Positions 56,012 to 64,000 of a DNA stretch of 64,000 nucleotides are shown piece after piece. The DNA lies in contig NC_016609.1 in the NCBI RefSeq assembly GCF_000246855.1, positions 3,286,001 through 3,350,000 on the forward strand, given 5' to 3'. The DNA is from Niastella koreensis GR20-10 (lineage in GTDB: Bacteria > Bacteroidota > Bacteroidia > Chitinophagales > Chitinophagaceae). The position numbers and the translations under genes were made by a program. Each line of letters opens with the position of its first letter. Within the stretch, counting starts at the first letter, position 1. Below the pieces are notes generated by a model that saw nothing but the letters and a program-made list of their open reading frames with translations, did no database searches and was not told where the DNA came from.

Positions 56012-56467
56012 ATGAAAAAAAGTAATGTGGCCGTGGGTATCATTTGCACATTGAACATTACCCTGTTAGTATACGCAGCTACTGCCAAATTGCTTGATTA
56101 CGATAATTTCCAATTTGGACTTACTGAATCACCGTTTATTGCTCCGTTTGCCAATATACTGGCATGGGCTGTACCTGCCACTGAGTATCTCATTGTGGCG
56201 TTACTGGTTATACCTGCTACACGATCAGCTGGCCTGTATGCGTCCTTTGGATTAATGTCAATATTCACCATCTATATAGCGGCCATGCTGCTTTCCGGCA
56301 GCGACATACCCTGCTCCTGCGGGGGCGTGCTGGAAGAGATGTCATGGAGCACGCATATAATATTTAACTGCTTCTTTATTGTTAATTCAGCCTGGGGTAT
56401 TTACCTGCAGCGAAAAAAGCGACGAACGCCTGCCTACTTACCTGCTTTAACCAAACCACTTCATTAA
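56012..56467 (+). CDS. MauE/DoxX-like four-helix membrane protein
   Basis: This 151-residue protein has four hydrophobic segments (about 8-26, 44-66, 72-94 and 114-132) and a PCSCGG motif (Cys101, Cys103) between the last two, like MauE-type or DoxX-like redox membrane proteins of Bacteroidota. MauE relatives take part in electron transfer or disulfide chemistry of exported proteins and also occur beside peptide-modification genes. It is the first gene of the plus-strand block 56012-60446, 114 bp before the HTH gene. Its link to that block is by position only. Confidence 0.75.
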   Translation: MKKSNVAVGIICTLNITLLVYAATAKLLDYDNFQFGLTESPFIAPFANILAWAVPATEYLIVALLVIPATRSAGLYASFGLMSIFTIYIAAMLLSGSDIPCSCGGVLEEMSWSTHIIFNCFFIVNSAWGIYLQRKKRRTPAYLPALTKPLH

Positions 56468-56581: not shown

Positions 56582-56860
56582 ATGCAACGAGATATCATTG
56601 ACCGGCTCTCGCGCCTGGACCACCTTATCCGTATAAAGGGTACAGGCACCCCAGCGCAACTGGCAGAGCGATTAAACCTATCTGAAAGAAGCATTTACGA
56701 TTACATCAGCTTTATGAAGGGATTAGGCTGCCCGATAAAATTCGACAGCTATCGCGAAAGCTATTTTTATGAAGAAGATGGCTTCTTCGTGATTGCATTC
56801 TTTTCAAAAAGTAAGCTAAAACCTTTATTTGAGAATTACTCAAGGGGGCTGAATGACTGA
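56582..56860 (+). CDS. Small HTH DNA-binding protein (92 aa)
   Basis: The N-terminal half is a winged-helix or HTH_11-type DNA-binding domain (IKGTGTPAQLAERLNLSERSIYDYISFMK, about residues 19-47). The remaining 45 residues (GCPIKFDSYRESYFYEEDG) fit a beta-wing and a short hydrophobic tail. There is no ligand-binding domain. It lies directly upstream of the kinase-LanC gene. A perfect 11-bp inverted repeat sits in the gap between them, a likely target. Regulation of the block by this protein is inference. Confidence 0.8.
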   Translation: MQRDIIDRLSRLDHLIRIKGTGTPAQLAERLNLSERSIYDYISFMKGLGCPIKFDSYRESYFYEEDGFFVIAFFSKSKLKPLFENYSRGLND

Positions 56861-56886
56861 TTAATGATGGCGGCAAGAATTAATAC

Positions 56887-56911
56887 TCCACTGCAGTTAT
56901 ACTGCAGTGGA
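56887..56911. promoter_or_regulatory. Perfect 11-bp inverted repeat before the kinase-LanC gene
   Basis: TCCACTGCAGT and ACTGCAGTGGA are exact complements separated by TAT. The site lies 26 bp after the HTH stop and 68 bp before the kinase ATG at 56979. No T-run follows, so an operator or RNA hairpin is more likely than a terminator. It also speaks against the in-frame GTG at 56907 as the start. Confidence 0.6.
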
Positions 56912-56978
56912 CCCGCCGATATTTAATATCAGGGTAACATTGGACCGTGTAGGGTCAAATTCATTAAACTTTATCAGG

Positions 56979-59132
56979 ATGAAAGTGGAGACTATTAAAA
57001 CCGTTTCACAGAGTGTAACGGAAGAAACCGAAGTAAAAGGCAAAGCCGTCAAAAAAGCCGGAAAACGAATCGGCTACAATTATATTATCGTAAAAAGCCT
57101 CAAAGAAAGCCAAAAGAATGATGTTGTAAAATGTTTTTATATAAAAAGCCTTACCAATTTTGGCTTCTGTGTTATAAAGGAAGGAACTTACGGAGATACA
57201 AAAGACAAGCATGGCCGCGACATAAAAGACCGCCTGATCTGGCAACAACAGTTACATGCCGAATTGCAGGACAAGGTGCGTATACCCAGGCTGTTGGGAC
57301 ATTTTGAAGAAAACGGCAATTATTACCTTGTAATAGAAAGCATAAAAGGTAAGCCGTTTTTTAAAGCCTGCCGGGAAAAGAATGGAGAACTGCGTGACGG
57401 GTTAATAACAGGAACGCGTACCGGAATCACCTTTATAAATTACTTAATACAGATCATTGACCTGTTGAACACCCTGCATAAACATCATGTTGTGCATCGC
57501 GATGCTACTTCCAACAATTTTATCATTATGCCCAACGGGAAAGTGGCAGTGATAGATATGGAACTTAGCTATTCCCTGCTACAACAGGCGCCGTCGCCCC
57601 CATTTCAGCTGGGAACTTTTGGATTTATGTCGCCGGAACAACTAAGAACAGAAACGCCTACGATCAAAGAGGATGTATTTTCTGCCGGCGCTTTGTTATT
57701 GCAGGTTTGGACGGGCATTTCACCAACAAAGTTAATTGACGTTTCACTGGAAGCCCTGGTTGAAAAGGTGCATTTTTTTATTCCTGATAAAACAATCGCC
57801 CGTATTGTGGTGCAATGTTTGCACCCTGATGCCCCAAAGCGCCCTGGCTTATCAACGATTTATAATGAATTGGTACAATACAAAGGCGACTTGCGCCAAA
57901 AGCAGCAACGCTCAATAACAAATCCCGTAGTATTTACAAAAGATCAAATCAATCAAACGATACAACAGGCAATTGAAACCATTGGTTCTCCCCTGTTGGC
58001 AGATCCCCAAAAAGGTTGGTTTGCCGAAAGCAATAAAACTGAACCCCTTAATGATAAAAGGAAGATCAACAAGGTTTGGTATACCAGTTTCAGTAAAGGG
58101 GCAACGGGTGTAATGTACTTATTGAACAGGGCAAAGAAAACAGGGTTCGATACCCAAGCCTCAGACCTCCCTGTTCAAAAAGCATTAGACCTTATAAACA
58201 CCAAATACATTCAGCGCATAGATGATGCATCCCCAAGTTTACATTTTGGTGCTACCGGCATTGCAGCCGTACTGGCAAATGCTATCAATGACGGCTTAAT
58301 AGAAGCCCAAACAATTTATTTCGAATGGATCAATCAATTACTTGACCGGGATAACCAAAATGCCGGGTTTATGAATGGCATAGCCGGTCAGGGTATAGCC
58401 CATCTGCTATGCAGTGATTTTTTACCAGCTGAATTAATAAAAGAACGGTTAGACCGGTATGTGGCATTCCTGTTAAAAAATCAATTGAACGACGGGTCGT
58501 GGATCTATAAAGAAATAGAAGACAAAGTAAAAAAGCGACAGGGATTTGCTACCGGCGCATCGGGTATTATTTATTTTCTGCTGGAATACGCGCTGCGTTA
58601 TCAGAACAAAGAGGTGCAGGCATCCGCAGAAGCAGGCCTGCAATGGCTAATGAAAAGAGCTGTTTACCGGGGCAATAAGATACAATGGCGCTCCGATAAA
58701 AATAAAGAACTAATGCACTGGTGGAGCGAAGGCACGTCGGGAATCGCCCTCGCTTTTATAAAAGCTTATTCGTGTTCGGATAACCTTACTGATAAGCAGC
58801 GTTATAAACAATTTGCCACCGGTGCATTATTAAACCACCCCAAACAGGTAGTGGACAACAATCTTAGTCAGCTGCAGGGATTGAGCGGATTGGGAGAAGT
58901 GTACCTGGAAGCTTGCCGGGTATTTCAGGAACAGGAATGGAATGAAAGAGCAGCCTGGATTGCCCAGGTGATCATGCATTTGAAGAAAGAACACCACGAA
59001 TTTGGCCCTTACTGGATGGTGCAATACGAACATCAGCCCACACCAGATTTTATGACCGGCAACAGTGGCGTTATCCACTTTTTATTACGATATTGTTATC
59101 CGGATAAAATTGGATTTCCACTGCTGTCATAA
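56979..59132 (+). CDS. Protein kinase fused to a zinc-ligand-less LanC-like domain
   Basis: From ATG 56979 the protein has 717 residues. About 55 basic N-terminal residues precede a Hanks-type kinase: Lys67 in CVIKEG, catalytic loop HRDATSNN (173-180, Asp175 and Asn180), Asp193 in VIDME in place of DFG, and GTFGFMSPEQ (212-221). The C-terminal half (about 365-717) is a LanC-like alpha toroid of seven GxxG repeats: GATGVMYLL, GATGIAAVL, GIAGQGIAHLL, GASGIIYFLL, GTSGIALAF, GLSGLGEVYL, GNSGVIHFLL. The LanC zinc ligands are absent: WWSEG replaces the Cys motif and LQGLSG replaces CHG. Class III/IV lanthipeptide synthetases have lyase-kinase-cyclase order, but there is no room for a lyase here. 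Function unknown; peptide or protein phosphorylation is likely. Confidence 0.85.
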   Translation: MKVETIKTVSQSVTEETEVKGKAVKKAGKRIGYNYIIVKSLKESQKNDVVKCFYIKSLTNFGFCVIKEGTYGDTKDKHGRDIKDRLIWQQQLHAELQDKVRIPRLLGHFEENGNYYLVIESIKGKPFFKACREKNGELRDGLITGTRTGITFINYLIQIIDLLNTLHKHHVVHRDATSNNFIIMPNGKVAVIDMELSYSLLQQAPSPPFQLGTFGFMSPEQLRTETPTIKEDVFSAGALLLQVWTGISPTKLIDVSLEALVEKVHFFIPDKTIARIVVQCLHPDAPKRPGLSTIYNELVQYKGDLRQKQQRSITNPVVFTKDQINQTIQQAIETIGSPLLADPQKGWFAESNKTEPLNDKRKINKVWYTSFSKGATGVMYLLNRAKKTGFDTQASDLPVQKALDLINTKYIQRIDDASPSLHFGATGIAAVLANAINDGLIEAQTIYFEWINQLLDRDNQNAGFMNGIAGQGIAHLLCSDFLPAELIKERLDRYVAFLLKNQLNDGSWIYKEIEDKVKKRQGFATGASGIIYFLLEYALRYQNKEVQASAEAGLQWLMKRAVYRGNKIQWRSDKNKELMHWWSEGTSGIALAFIKAYSCSDNLTDKQRYKQFATGALLNHPKQVVDNNLSQLQGLSGLGEVYLEACRVFQEQEWNERAAWIAQVIMHLKKEHHEFGPYWMVQYEHQPTPDFMTGNSGVIHFLLRYCYPDKIGFPLLS

Positions 59133-59158
59133 GCCTTATTTCACCAGAAAAGCGACAA

Positions 59159-59944
59159 ATGAATTACGCGAAAGTTTTAGATGCGGCAATGACCTTATTT
59201 CCTAAAAAGATAACGGTAACTTATATTAACGCCGTTACAAAACAACCAATAGGAAAATATAAAATCCCGCTCAGCCAGGTACCACTTGTTTTCAACAAAC
59301 CTGTTACCACCACCATTGATGGGCAGGAATGGCGTATTGTAAAAGCTGATCCTGTGAACGCTGATGATATTTCCATTTTTAAAAAACTGACGTTGCACGT
59401 ACTTGATAAGGATCAGTTGCAGCATACGCCATTAGGCCATAACGTGCCTACCCGGCATGCCAATAGCCCTTTAACAACCCCTACCCCTTTTTACCAGCAG
59501 TTTACATTGAATATGACTACAGACGACTGGTTGCAACTGGAATTTATGCCAGTTCGTTCATTACCACTCATCCAGGAAGAACTTGCCCTGATAGACACGA
59601 TTTTAGCAGATGAAAACGGGTTTAATCCCCTATTGGGTTTTAAAAACATGCATACACGTAGCCTTACAGGCCAAATTGGTTCAAATATCCCTTTTGACGC
59701 TTTTTGCGCTCACATTCCAGTAAACCAAAAAGGTAATATCCGGCTGGCACACGGCGATTTCATTGAAAATGGGTTTGTTTTGCGCACTGAGAATTACGAA
59801 TATTACGGCACAGTAGAAAATAACCGCATTACCTATTTAGGCCTGACGGCCTTTGAATGCATAGACGATGAATTTGTACACGTGGCCACTACCTGGAACC
59901 TGGCACTAGTAAACTGGTGTCAGGGCAGTATAACAGCAGTTTAA
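59159..59944 (+). CDS. Unrecognised protein downstream of the kinase-LanC gene (261 aa)
   Basis: A 261-residue cytosolic-looking protein without signal peptide or membrane helix. The N-terminal 80 residues read as a beta-rich module (KITVTYINAVTKQPIGKYKI, WRIVKADPVNADD). A middle region is rich in Thr/Pro, and the C-terminal half again looks beta-rich (FVLRTENYEYYGTVENNRITYLGLTAF). No family was recognised. It follows the kinase-LanC gene by 26 bp in the same direction, so they are almost certainly co-transcribed. It may be a substrate, partner or second modifying factor; nothing in the sequence decides between these. Confidence 0.7.
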   Translation: MNYAKVLDAAMTLFPKKITVTYINAVTKQPIGKYKIPLSQVPLVFNKPVTTTIDGQEWRIVKADPVNADDISIFKKLTLHVLDKDQLQHTPLGHNVPTRHANSPLTTPTPFYQQFTLNMTTDDWLQLEFMPVRSLPLIQEELALIDTILADENGFNPLLGFKNMHTRSLTGQIGSNIPFDAFCAHIPVNQKGNIRLAHGDFIENGFVLRTENYEYYGTVENNRITYLGLTAFECIDDEFVHVATTWNLALVNWCQGSITAV

Positions 59945-60013
59945 GCCGACCGAATGCATTTTTATTTGCCTGATTTCAAAAAGTCCTTTAATTTACACGG
60001 TCAGTTAAGTTGT

Positions 60014-60088
60014 ACTTCCAATAATTGGTACTTTGGAAGTCATGTACACAATGCTCCGATTAGTAAGCCAACTGCCACTATTGGCTTA
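60014..60088. promoter_or_regulatory. Two inverted repeats upstream of the lysine-tailed HTH gene
   Basis: ACTTCCAA / TTGGAAGT (60014-60021 with 60033-60040) and TAAGCCA / TGGCTTA (60064-60070 with 60082-60088) are perfect. They occupy the gap between the 261-aa gene and the HTH gene at 60111, and may be operators. Confidence 0.35.
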
Positions 60089-60110
60089 ACCATTAAATGT
60101 ATTGAACAGC

Positions 60111-60446
60111 ATGGCAAAAAAGAAACGCATTGCTGCAAAAAGGACTCATCTGGTAAATAAAAAGACAGCAGCCCCCAAAAAGAAAGCTGCCGGTAAAAAG
60201 AAAAAAGCTGCAAAAAAATCGTTTACCTCTTCCAGGATCCTGACCCAACGGCTGGTAATACACACGAATGATATTACCAAGATCCTTGGTATAAACATTC
60301 GTACTGCACAACGGTTACTCCAAAGCATCCGGGAATCTTTAGGGCGGAAGAAAAAAGATTATGTGTCAATAAGGGAGTTTGCCGATTATGTGCACCTCGG
60401 TGAAGAAGAAGTAAGGCAAAATCTAAGTACAACCTCTCTCAACTAG
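60111..60446 (+). CDS. HTH protein with lysine-rich histone-like N-terminal tail
   Basis: From ATG 60111 the protein has 111 residues. The first 38 are almost only Lys, Ala and Pro (AKKKRIAAKR, KKTAAPKKKAAGKKKKAAKK), like histone-H1-type tails. The remainder is a helix-turn-helix domain seen in small Bacteroidota DNA-binding proteins (NDITKILGINIRTAQRLLQSIRE, then VSIREFADYVHLGEEEV). It probably binds DNA with the tail adding non-specific affinity. It ends the plus-strand block and is followed by a very strong hairpin. Confidence 0.8.
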   Translation: MAKKKRIAAKRTHLVNKKTAAPKKKAAGKKKKAAKKSFTSSRILTQRLVIHTNDITKILGINIRTAQRLLQSIRESLGRKKKDYVSIREFADYVHLGEEEVRQNLSTTSLN

Positions 60447-60567: not shown

Positions 60568-61482
60568 CTACTTTAAACGTTCGCGCTTTCCATCTTTATC
60601 AACCCTATAAAAATTATTCCCTTTTATAAAAAGGGCTTCAGAAACTCCTGCAGCATGATTAGTATCTACATTAATTATCTTCCCATTGAAAAATGAGGTA
60701 ACCTTGTCTACTATTGTATGACCTGTGATGATCATCTTTGCATCAAACTTTTTCAGAATGGTATCCACCTGGCCTTCAGAAACAGCCGCCCTGTAATAAC
60801 CCCGGTACCAAAAGGGAGACTCATCACTGTTTAAAATAGCATGTAAGGCAGGATCAGTAAACAGCTCATTAGCCCTGGTATAATATGGCCGGGCCAGCTC
60901 ATTGATCTCCGTAACTGACAAATTCAATTTCAACAACGCTTCTGATATCCCTCCATGAACAAACAGGATATCCCCTATTTGTTCAATTATATTTTTAGTA
61001 CGTAACCATCGCCACAATTCACTATTGCCATCATACAATGCTGTTGCCGGGTGCCGGGAACCTGATGGCGTTATTGCATATTTGGGATGTATATAACGCC
61101 AATCGCCATTCATATTCATGATCTCATGATTGCCAAGAATAAAATGCACATGCCCGCCATCCCTTTGGGCCCTTTCTTCCAAAGAATAGATCAGCCAGAG
61201 GCACTCCATCACTTCTTCACCACGGTCAAAGCAGTCTCCCAGTATAACCAAATGATTATCTTTAAACGACCATTTCAGGTATTTATCTATTATTTTATAA
61301 TTTCTCAACAGCAGGAACAGCGATTTGAAATTCCCTTCAATATCAGACAAAACAAAAATTTGTTTAGGCGCATCATATACGCTTCTTTCATTACGCAATT
61401 GTTCCTGTAACCGCAGGTGGTAATACCTGCCATCTGCATCCAGACCCGGAACAAGCATAGGTATATTAACTTTTGTAAGCAT
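60568..61482 (-). CDS. Calcineurin-like metallophosphoesterase
   Basis: This 304-residue protein has the metallophosphoesterase motifs in order: VLSDIEGN (Asp47, with Glu where many have His), GDCFDRGEE (82-90), GNHEIMN (117-123), IITGHTIV and a late His-containing segment (NVDTNHAAG). The arrangement resembles Shewanella-like bacterial phosphatases of the PPP type. There is no signal peptide, so it is cytosolic. It is the last gene of a minus-strand run and starts 45 bp after the thioredoxin-like lipoprotein. Substrate unknown. Confidence 0.85.
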   Translation of the reverse strand: MLTKVNIPMLVPGLDADGRYYHLRLQEQLRNERSVYDAPKQIFVLSDIEGNFKSLFLLLRNYKIIDKYLKWSFKDNHLVILGDCFDRGEEVMECLWLIYSLEERAQRDGGHVHFILGNHEIMNMNGDWRYIHPKYAITPSGSRHPATALYDGNSELWRWLRTKNIIEQIGDILFVHGGISEALLKLNLSVTEINELARPYYTRANELFTDPALHAILNSDESPFWYRGYYRAAVSEGQVDTILKKFDAKMIITGHTIVDKVTSFFNGKIINVDTNHAAGVSEALFIKGNNFYRVDKDGKRERLK

Positions 61483-61527: not shown

Positions 61528-62091
61528 TCAAGGGGCCATTCGGTGACCAGAAAAAAACTCCCTCAGGTCTTCCCGTACTGTTCGGGGAATGGCAGCGACC
61601 TTTTTATATACTTTCCGGCTACTGGAATAGTATATGGTTGGTTTGTTCTCATACAACAAAAGCCTATGAGCCTCATTGGTGCTATCTAATAAAAGCTTAT
61701 CTGTTTCAGGCATCACTTTATTGTTCTCCTGGAAATACCCTCTGATGGATTTGTAGCCGCCATTTGCAGAAATAATAATAAAATGATTATTGGGTAAGTC
61801 ATTTTTATGTTCCGCAATGCTGTCAATGGTTTTATTACGGCATGCCGGACAGCTGGCTTGTACCGGCAATATCAGGAAAGCCAGGGAGTCTTCCTGTTCT
61901 TTATTAGAAACAGCAGACCTGGTTAGCTGCATAAGGTTATTAAAAATTGCAGATTGCCGGCTGTCATCTGCAATTAATTCAATGCTGTTTTTTTTATCCC
62001 CGGATTTGCAATGGATCGCCAATACTGACAGTATAAAAACAACTATATAGTAACCACTCTTCCCGGGAAGGTTATTTGATGATGTTCTCAT
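61528..62091 (-). CDS. Thioredoxin-like CxxC lipoprotein
   Basis: Taking the ATG at 62089-62091, the protein has 187 residues; a longer frame lacks a signal sequence. An uncleaved helix or lipoprotein signal ends at LAIHC (Cys28). The redox motif ASCPACRNK (Cys81, Cys84) follows a strand FLILPVQ, as in TlpA/thioredoxin-like folds, and a cis-Pro-like PTIYY comes near the end. Such proteins act in disulfide exchange outside the cytoplasm. It overlaps the DUF4221-like gene by 20 bp, indicating coupled translation. Confidence 0.72.
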   Translation of the reverse strand: MRTSSNNLPGKSGYYIVVFILSVLAIHCKSGDKKNSIELIADDSRQSAIFNNLMQLTRSAVSNKEQEDSLAFLILPVQASCPACRNKTIDSIAEHKNDLPNNHFIIISANGGYKSIRGYFQENNKVMPETDKLLLDSTNEAHRLLLYENKPTIYYSSSRKVYKKVAAIPRTVREDLREFFSGHRMAP

Positions 62092-63268
62092 TTTGTGCCA
62101 ATTGATTAATTGAATAGGAGCTGTCATCACTATATGCCAGTCGGATAAAATGCAAGGCAAATTCATCTCCTGCTTTCGTTTGGGCATAGATGCCACCCTC
62201 CTTTGTAAAAAATAAAGTATTGAGCCAAATGGTTTTATCTATTTCAGATTCACCTATAATTTTAAAATTTTCATTAAAAATGAGTAACCGTTGAGTTCTA
62301 TCCAGTTTTTTGGCCTTATACTCGGCCTCGCTTATTTTACTTTTGACTACACGTAAGTATCTATTTTTATAAGGGTCAAAATAAACAGGACCATATGAAT
62401 CCTTTGTTATATAATTCTCTAGTTGTTTTTCACCTGTTGAGAGTTCTTCTTTTGAAACGGGGGTAATGGGGGCATCCTGGTACTGGCTTTTGGCAAAATA
62501 AGCAGCGTGAAAATCTGCCAGGTTCGTTTCATAAATGCAGGTGTCTGCCGCAAAGCTGAAAACAAAACGGCCATGGTTATTATAGCAATAGCTGTAATCT
62601 AAAAAACTATATCCAAAAATATTTTTCTGGTATAATTCCGGCAGGTGATAATGCAGGGATGCCTTTTTGTTATGCAGGTCAAAGGCATATAACACCTTCC
62701 ATTTTTTCAAATCATCCAGGGAGGTTTCTTTAACATAGGGCCTTACTCCCGCAAATAAATGATTTCCTTTAAAAACGGGCGGGTTATTGTTATCGAATAA
62801 AGCAAAGGCATTATCAGGCTTTTCAACAAACTCAACTGATTTTTTGATCTTACCCACACTATTCAGCAGGTACAGCTTATTTTGATTAAATACAAAAACA
62901 CTGTCAAAGCTTTTAACATAAACCGTTGTTTTGTACAGTGAATGATGCAGCCATTCTTTAACCGGGATCCTTTTTATGGGTTGCGGAAATCGAAGCGTAT
63001 AAATATTCAATGACCCGGAACGCTGATCAAAAAAAGCTAAGTATTCCTTTCCGTTTTGTGAAAATACATTTACCGACTTAATAGCATTAAAAGTACTATC
63101 ATTCAAGGGTATTGAAATCGTATCTGGTTTGCTGGCAATTTGCACAGAATGGTATTGCGGTGGAATAAATACGTAGGTACTATCAATGGTAGCATCCCTT
63201 TCCCGGCATGCCTGGCTGCCTGCAAAAACAAACAAAATAATAACTGCAATATTTATTGTTTTCCTCAT
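62072..63268 (-). CDS. DUF4221-like lipoprotein
   Basis: This 398-residue lipoprotein has a signal ending in SQAC (Cys21). The mature part is a series of short beta-strand pairs typical of propeller-like folds (FLAFFDQRSGSLNIYTLRF, VLYAFDLHNKKASLHYHLPELY, FDPYKNRYLRVVKSKI). The overall order matches the Bacteroidota DUF4221 family, whose function is unknown. It lies between an unknown gene upstream and the CxxC lipoprotein downstream, with a 20-bp overlap to the latter. Confidence 0.72.
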   Translation of the reverse strand: MRKTINIAVIILFVFAGSQACRERDATIDSTYVFIPPQYHSVQIASKPDTISIPLNDSTFNAIKSVNVFSQNGKEYLAFFDQRSGSLNIYTLRFPQPIKRIPVKEWLHHSLYKTTVYVKSFDSVFVFNQNKLYLLNSVGKIKKSVEFVEKPDNAFALFDNNNPPVFKGNHLFAGVRPYVKETSLDDLKKWKVLYAFDLHNKKASLHYHLPELYQKNIFGYSFLDYSYCYNNHGRFVFSFAADTCIYETNLADFHAAYFAKSQYQDAPITPVSKEELSTGEKQLENYITKDSYGPVYFDPYKNRYLRVVKSKISEAEYKAKKLDRTQRLLIFNENFKIIGESEIDKTIWLNTLFFTKEGGIYAQTKAGDEFALHFIRLAYSDDSSYSINQLAQNENIIK

Positions 63269-63351: not shown

Positions 63352-64000
63352 CTATTTTTTTGAACGCACACGCATACTGTCTTCATAATGGTGCACCCAT
63401 TGCTTATACTCAGGGAACCCAGGCTGTTTATAATAGTCTTTTAAGATCGAATCGGTAACCGGAGTTTCGAAACCAAGTTTTAATATTATATCACGGGCAA
63501 CAATATATTGCAACAATCTTTCGCGAAGCTGTCCGGCGAAGTTTTGTTTTACCGCATCATATTGAAAAAGGTTACGCTTCTCTCTTACACCCAGGCTGTC
63601 ATTTCCATAATCAAAGTTGAATTTTTTTAAGACCTGAATGCGGTTATATTGATAGAAATAAGTAACCATTCCGTCGTAGTCTTCTTTTGACCTTAACCAC
63701 TTAGCCAAACTCCCGTTAAGCGTGGAGTCGCAAATAGCCTTCATATCTCCCTGTGTTAACCCGGATGTACTGTTTTTCATCAGGATGCTATTAAAATTCA
63801 AAAATGTCTCTGCGCGCTGTTCCTCCACTCTGTCAATTGTATGCACCTTAACCCAATCATAAATAAATGGGGAAACCTTTTCTTTATAGGATTCAAGAAT
63901 AGCCATTGACACTTCTTCACAGGTGTCCAGGTAACTTTTCCAGTTTAAATAGTCTTTTAAGGAGTTTATAATGAAGAAATCCTTTGTAGGTTGTTGTTTT
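63352..64000 (-). CDS. Unidentified protein, C-terminal part (start beyond window)
   Basis: The frame is open from the right edge to a stop at 63352-63354, giving at least 215 residues. There are internal GTG codons but no convincing start, so the gene probably begins outside the window. The visible part is highly helical and charged (VSMAILESYKEKVSPFIYDW, YFYQYNRIQVLKKFNFDYG, LLQYIVARDIILKLG). No family was recognised; the helical pattern recalls the N-terminal parts of some TlpA-like proteins, but no thioredoxin domain follows. It is 83 bp upstream of the DUF4221-like gene on the same strand. Confidence 0.55.
   Translation of the reverse strand, partial: KQQPTKDFFIINSLKDYLNWKSYLDTCEEVSMAILESYKEKVSPFIYDWVKVHTIDRVEEQRAETFLNFNSILMKNSTSGLTQGDMKAICDSTLNGSLAKWLRSKEDYDGMVTYFYQYNRIQVLKKFNFDYGNDSLGVREKRNLFQYDAVKQNFAGQLRERLLQYIVARDIILKLGFETPVTDSILKDYYKQPGFPEYKQWVHHYEDSMRVRSKK

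Follow-up and report, generated by a model that had tools for sequence, protein, structure and literature searches.

A lyase-less kinase-LanC protein and its conserved gene block in Niastella koreensis and other Chitinophagaceae: a candidate peptide-phosphorylating system related to lanthipeptide synthetases

Lanthipeptide synthetases of classes III and IV are the closest described relatives of the protein considered here, and in these enzymes phosphorylation is a step that precedes elimination. An excerpt of PMC10604976 attributes to class III kinases a glutamate in the DF(G/E) motif, states that class III cyclase domains devoid of zinc ligands nevertheless cyclise, and places the HopA1-type lyase LanY in the class V machinery. 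Genome mining of the kind outlined in part of PMC7268733 files any protein with LanC and Pkinase domains as class III/IV, and a kinase-LanC protein without a lyase is therefore filed there by default. Such a lyase-less protein is encoded in a 64,000-nucleotide stretch of the 9.03-Mb chromosome of Niastella koreensis GR20-10 (NC_016609.1, positions 3,286,001 to 3,350,000 of the forward strand; hereafter the window). Comparison of the gene with its homologues suggests, with what we consider an even chance of being right, that the left half of a Chitinophagaceae locus for peptide modification and uptake/signalling lies within the window.

The kinase-LanC gene lies on the plus strand at 56979..59132 and encodes 717 amino acids; ATG 56979 is most likely its start because close relatives begin there, and a GTG at 56907, also open, gives a 741-residue reading. 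Pfam recognised a Pkinase domain (2e-20) and a LANC_like domain (1.5e-26; residues 393-737 of the 741-residue reading), and the catalytic residues of the kinase were located at Lys67, His173-Arg-Asp175, Asn180 and Asp193, together with Glu195. The kinase motifs, inclusive of the DF(G/E) glutamate, are retained in all 23 lyase-less members compared. The domain scan and motif check agree with the first-pass annotation, which had described a kinase with intact catalytic residues joined to a LanC-like domain. The best NCBIfam model was LanL of class IV (NF038150), with which the order kinase then LanC is shared; the score of 248.9 bits is far below the curated cut-off of 650, and the match begins at model position 181, which indicates that the N-terminal lyase part is missing. 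The LanKC model of class III scored 148.2 bits against a cut-off of 575; the closest PDB match was a class III LanKC (8car), and the DF(G/E) kinase and zinc-ligand-free LanC domain are held in common with this class (ThurKC, 8sam). RamC_N, the lyase domain, was detected neither in the protein by Pfam nor anywhere in the window's genome, which holds one LanC domain in total. With its lyase missing, the protein falls outside class III/IV synthetases. The first-pass annotation had suggested that the module could lie beyond the described lanthipeptide classes, and it does look like such a module.

The Cys-Cys-His zinc triad is replaced in the window protein by Ser583, Leu632 and Gln633, a further difference from LanL, and the CHG motifs of LanCL2 (PDB 6wq1) align opposite SEG and LQG of its LanC domain. 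A complete triad was found in 2 of the 23 lyase-less proteins, in none of the 19 full-length proteins from Bacteroidota and in all 12 full-length proteins from other phyla. Since class III enzymes without zinc ligands still cyclise, loss of these ligands alone is no proof against ring formation, and the absence of the lyase carries more weight. Both the kinase and the LanC domain are under purifying selection, with dN/dS (the ratio of nonsynonymous to synonymous substitution rates) of 0.05-0.16 in six comparisons, all with dS >1.

Systematic search of the same 294 Chitinophagaceae genomes was done for every family. The kinase-LanC profile matched in 24 genomes at 1e-40, of which 14 carry lyase-less proteins as judged by frame length and neighbourhood. 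Two families of interest, the thioredoxin-fold protein F10 and the small peptide F11, occur in the identical 13 genomes, all of them among the 14 lyase-less carriers; the fourteenth (G199) is 84% complete and bears its gene in two open reading frames (ORFs) on a 4-kb contig. The chance of such overlap is about 9e-22 if genomes are independent and about 1e-6 when counted by genus, both figures being optimistic as they ignore shared ancestry. The PPP phosphatase family was present in 44 genomes and is not specific for that reason.

A wider scan, across GTDB species genomes, yielded 78 loci, of which 60 (L136-L195) were tabulated and 18 with weak partial kinase matches were left out; the former comprise 23 lyase-less loci, 31 full-length loci with RamC_N and 6 that are partial or split. 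Lyase-less hosts are soil bacteria and belong to Niastella, Longitalea, Chitinophaga, Pseudobacter, Flavihumibacter, Paraflavitalea and Pseudoflavitalea, along with one Chitinophagaceae metagenome-assembled genome. A helix-turn-helix (HTH) homologue stands upstream of kinase-LanC at 23/23 lyase-less loci. F11 and an 860-residue protein were found at all 21 loci with long enough DNA, the stretches of L136 and L157 being too short to show the block; F10, DUF4221 and PPP occur at 19 of these 21 (exceptions, L145 and L147), and SusD at 20, the stretch of L137 ending before it. At two loci, L138 and L183, F11 is the next gene after kinase-LanC and shares its strand. With the thresholds applied, neither F11 nor F10, DUF4221 or PPP was detected at any of the 31 full-length lyase-containing loci.

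The constant partners of kinase-LanC are thus the HTH gene and a block of PPP, F10, DUF4221, F11, the 860-residue protein, and SusD and SusC, an outer-membrane receptor of the nutrient type. In the window, the HTH_11 regulator (92 residues; Pfam 2.3e-6) is encoded at 56582..56860 on the plus strand, and the block runs convergently on the minus strand: PPP-type metallophosphatase (60568..61482, 304 residues; Pfam Metallophos 1.5e-15), F10 (61528..62196; probable ATG 62091 by eye), DUF4221 lipoprotein-like protein (62072..63268, 398 residues; 1.8e-23) and a 364-residue lipoprotein-like protein, F364 (63352..64000, running on to 64446) that shares homology with a section of the 860-residue protein. 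The block continues on the same strand past the right edge of the window, where coordinates are extrapolated, with F11 (64541-64879), the 860-residue protein (65061-67643; Pfam thioredoxin/AhpC-TSA and Metallophos), SusD (67681-69117), SusC (69139-72561; STN-like N-terminus by eye) and FecR (72681-73928), the last three identified by sequence reading rather than by family search. The first-pass annotation had proposed the HTH and kinase-LanC genes as a candidate cassette with the two plus-strand genes that follow, for a 261-residue protein (U261) and a Lys-rich HTH protein. Its interpretation is partly supported, being right on the type of module and wrong or incomplete on the partners: conserved partners do exist, and the HTH gene is one of them, whereas the other two genes occur at 13/23 and 4/23 lyase-less loci, respectively, and are also met without or apart from kinase-LanC.

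Alternative lyases were sought in the 16 carrier genomes. RamC_N is missing from 13 of them, that of the window included; the positive ones are G001, with a split RamC_N-kinase within the block, and G259 and G312, with other full-length genes. HopA1-type lyase was found in none of the 16, and LanB in four, the window's genome not being one of these. Neither RamC_N nor LanB is present in 10 of the 16, again including that of the window.

It can be seen from the F11 family that the block carries a peptide resembling a precursor of ribosomally synthesised and post-translationally modified peptides (RiPPs). F11 is about 85-150 residues long, with an N-terminus of the type MQKxSxKKLSILGLVLMAASAVTAAxxPxK followed by a variable tail whose Ser plus Thr content is 20-35% in 32 of 34 copies, and no lipobox was seen in it. 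Its first 30 residues share a mean identity of 52% at 19 of the 21 loci, the two with the most divergent F11 falling outside this figure as the start-finding pattern failed there; for comparison, three neighbouring proteins give 15-21% at their N-termini, a shuffled baseline 21% and the last 40 residues of F11 22%. Conservation of this order would be needed of a leader read by an enzyme and would not be needed of a plain Sec signal. Tandem copies were also observed, three at L121, three at L149 and five at L166. A small linked gene with a conserved leader and a variable core is expected of a RiPP precursor, and F11 shows all three features. The earlier statement that no lanthipeptide precursor is visible holds inside the window; the candidate gene lies 541 bases beyond its right edge.

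Cysteines of F11 vary with F10. At the 19 loci with F10, a Cys pair, 8-13 residues apart, stands at a constant place in 30 of 31 copies (the exception is a 48-residue ORF), and one copy has four further Cys beyond the pair. At L145 and L147, which do not have F10, the pair is found in none of three copies and two copies are Cys-free, these being the 2 of 34 without any Cys; F11 usually has two Cys along with its Ser/Thr. Because the pair is lost where F10 is lost, the pattern fits F10 acting on the F11 cysteines, with Ser/Thr left for the kinase. F10 is lipoprotein-like: its CPxC motif is invariant, and so is a Cys near the N-terminus that was read as a lipobox. It models as a thioredoxin fold, and its structure model (mean predicted local distance difference test, pLDDT, 84.4) gave ResA as the best Foldseek match (E 1.2e-4; template-modelling score 0.35 by query and 0.51 by target).

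GDxxDRG and GNHE are signature motifs of the PPP-family metal site. Four motifs were scanned, and the PPP domain of the 860-residue protein keeps every one of them at 19 of 21 loci. The window's standalone PPP protein has both GDCFDRG and GNHE, which places it in the family, and no signal peptide was seen in it. As a separate observation, metal-site motifs of the standalone PPP are wholly or partly lost at 13 of 19 loci (L138, L140, L142-L144, L146, L148, L150, L151, L153, L164, L166 and L183), which suggests a pseudophosphatase role for the degenerate copies.

Full-length RamC_N-kinase-LanC proteins of Bacteroidota (Mucilaginibacter, Olivibacter, Chitinophaga and others) are also among the closest known systems. 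Small peptides of the leader type occur at many of their loci and often contain two Cys, and SusC and SusD lie nearby at 16 of 19 and MauE at 13 of 19; they differ in that the lyase is present and F11, F10, DUF4221 and PPP are found at none of the 19. One cluster of these peptides holds 15 ORFs from 11 loci, others come from three and two loci, and some members are Cys-free. When small ORFs alone were searched, the F11 profile gave a weak match (E 0.0034) to one of these peptides, which hints at shared descent of the leaders. Families of small, Thr-rich, signal-peptide-like peptides near MauE and SusD/SusC at L158, L160, L167, L169, L176, L178, L180, L182, L190 and others (Mucilaginibacter, Chitinophaga, Olivibacter) likewise look like RiPP precursors, and SusCD-linked candidate precursors of Bacteroidota were not found described as a group in the literature searched. 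From class III LanKC the window system differs, besides the lyase, by its linkage to F11, thioredoxin-fold, phosphatase and SusCD genes. The MNIO-modified RiPP-lipoproteins of Bacteroidota (ChrH/DybH family), as presented in an excerpt of PMC12636315, resemble the system proposed here in cytoplasmic modification of a peptide with its own signal peptide and in frequent proximity of SusCD; their enzyme and chemistry are unrelated, and their precursor, unlike F11, has a lipobox.

A midpoint-rooted tree was built from 54 proteins, namely the window protein, 22 other lyase-less proteins and 31 full-length proteins of GTDB species, with L157 omitted as its gene is in two ORFs. The lyase-less proteins form a single clade with support of 100/100. 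The system may be a derived branch of broader SusCD-linked, synthetase-like loci of Bacteroidota; the tree leaves this idea unsettled, as the lyase-less clade is placed nearer to enzymes from outside that phylum.

What was observed is which genes are present, how they are linked, the lost domain, the states of the motifs and the leader-like conservation of F11; to this we fit a peptide-phosphorylating system that stems from lanthipeptide machinery, a reading to which, on sequence grounds, we lend half our credence. F11 would be a precursor whose N-terminal leader doubles as a Sec-like signal. Cytoplasmic kinase-LanC would bind this leader and phosphorylate Ser/Thr of the tail; because the lyase is gone, the phosphate would not be eliminated and no dehydroamino acid would form, and the zinc-less LanC toroid would serve as a peptide-binding module. 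Sec would then export the peptide, F10 (with MauE if present) would handle the Cys pair, and the exported 860-residue TlpA-phosphatase would remove phosphate from the peptide, with cytoplasmic PPP acting as antagonist, or as a binding protein at loci where it is degenerate. The adjacent SusC, SusD and FecR would re-import the peptide or its ligand and signal. F11 is thus the putative kinase substrate, and we infer likewise that the product stays phosphorylated, where in the cell each component acts, and the steps from export onwards. The fuller picture of a secreted, multiply phosphorylated, disulfide-bearing peptide with a leader-guided kinase, handling by the TlpA-phosphatase and recapture by SusCD is put forward tentatively, as less likely than not; such a phosphopeptide could, for instance, scavenge metals or nutrients or act as a signal sensed by its own producer. 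In this same picture, a lanthipeptide-synthetase ancestor would have been rebuilt by losing the lyase and gaining phosphatases. If the proposal is true, phosphorylation would be the product itself rather than the step before elimination, and the LanC-fold domain would gain a role other than cyclisation. Literature searches found no ribosomal phosphopeptide system of this kind.

Several observations weigh against this proposal, besides the limits already attached to the chance figures and the leader identity. Linkage and conservation are the grounds for taking F11 as the substrate, and its copies were found via a profile from this genus that includes the leader, which favours conserved leaders. 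The association of F10 with the Cys pair amounts to one event, as L145 and L147 are sisters and are also without DUF4221 and PPP. The full set of four motifs is intact in standalone PPP at only 6 of 19 loci, and one full-length locus outside the GTDB-species set (L074) gave a weak match to the F10 profile (3e-6). Two lyase-less proteins, of L150 and L153, retain the complete zinc triad and could form rings, and a separate RamC_N-kinase protein lies within the block at L137 and L142, where dehydration in trans is possible. According to a passage of PMC10604976, the isolated kinase domain of ThurKC and its lyase-kinase pair are inactive, while other class III/IV domains are active in isolation.

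The least unlikely of the alternatives is a pathway still making lanthipeptides, in which a lyase in trans or an unrecognised one eliminates the phosphate and a metal-independent LanC domain closes rings on the two F11 cysteines. The two conserved Cys and many Ser/Thr of most F11 copies, the cyclising class III domains without zinc ligands, the purifying selection on the LanC domain, the two retained Cys-Cys-His triads and the RamC_N-kinase proteins of L137 and L142 would all be expected of it; we still regard it as unlikely, given that RamC_N is absent from 13, HopA1-type lyase from 16 and LanB from 12 of the 16 carrier genomes, that two F11 copies are Cys-free, and that the Cys pair is gone where the thioredoxin-fold protein is gone. 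Kinase-LanC could instead be a regulator that phosphorylates a protein (the HTH protein, a member of the SusC/FecR pathway or the phosphatase) to control the locus, with F11 an unmodified secreted peptide. The HTH gene as most constant neighbour, a conserved palindrome between it and the kinase gene at several loci, and FecR and SusC genes behind the block in the window's genome are consistent with this. It too is improbable in our view, as the closest relatives are a peptide-modifying synthetase family whose Bacteroidota members adjoin small leader-type peptides of their own, and neighbouring exported proteins have N-termini much less conserved than that of F11.

Very improbable is the original proposal that HTH, kinase-LanC, 261-residue and Lys-rich HTH proteins work together. 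The four plus-strand frames were all found as described, in the same order with small gaps, and the 261-residue gene stands directly behind the kinase at 11 of 23 loci and upstream of the HTH gene at 2 more. This gene is missing, however, at 10 of 23 loci and the Lys-rich HTH gene at 19 of 23 (the genomes of L138 and L149 hold both at another place), and both exist without kinase-LanC in G002. The four loci with the Lys-rich HTH gene are all of Niastella/Longitalea; it is probably a genus-level neighbour outside the system, and the 261-residue gene is a frequent yet dispensable neighbour. Among 10 genomes of the same genus, full kinase-LanC is present in 7, the 261-residue gene in 9 (one broken) and the Lys-rich HTH gene in 10. 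G003 and G005 keep the other two genes at the old site and carry kinase-LanC, together with an HTH paralogue of its own, at a different one. The second block beside kinase-LanC in this genus consists of PPP, F10, DUF4221, F11 and the protein of about 860 residues; G007 has this block on a different contig, the one with kinase-LanC stopping short of it.

Remaining features of the window and its relatives are as follows. A MauE-like membrane protein (151 residues, PCSCGG motif; Pfam MauE 1.3e-31) is encoded upstream at 56012..56467 on the plus strand, MauE being an occasional upstream neighbour at 8 of 23 lyase-less loci. The inverted repeats reported before the first, second and fourth plus-strand genes are present at all three places: 9 nt at 89% before the HTH gene, two pairs of 8 nt before the Lys-rich HTH gene, and a perfect 11-nt repeat with a 3-nt spacer at 56887..56911 between the HTH and kinase-LanC genes. 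The chance test was run on this last one: when the bases of the 118-base gap were shuffled 1000 times, 4 of the shuffles reached an arm of 10 nt. Related palindromes occupy the same gap at L136, L137, L139, L143 and L154, and the repeat may be an operator or hairpin.

Other architectures were also noted. RamC_N-kinase proteins without LanC (about 435-470 residues) form a third one, seen at L067:14139-15512 (= L137:16236), L142:13855, L073, L135, L189, L192, L194 and L195; two copies are in F11 blocks, most others near MauE and some near SusCD. In Chitinophaga filiformis and Chitinophaga sp. CF418 (L140:8295, L142:8280), the HTH and kinase-LanC genes are preceded by a separate ORF of about 450 residues that matches LanC. 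Legionella/Fluoribacter full-length class IV-like synthetases (L165, L168, L171, L172, L173, L188 and L191) have a complete zinc triad and no SusC/SusD match nearby.

The Lys-rich HTH protein (111-114 residues by ORF reading) is encoded at 60102/60111..60446 and the 261-residue protein at 59159..59944, both on the plus strand. The latter, as first proposed, is of no known family, being without a Pfam or NCBIfam match, and its structure model (pLDDT 87.2) gave no Foldseek match in PDB at E 0.001 or better. Its distant relatives lie away from any kinase-LanC, amid unrelated genes, at G024:C1:629630, G030:C1:1611457 and G037:C33:637. Between the HTH and 261-residue genes of G005 there persists a remnant of the LanC domain, 45 residues long and containing an in-frame stop (G005:C198:319834-319968), which suggests that kinase-LanC was lost from this old site, the intact copy being on another contig.

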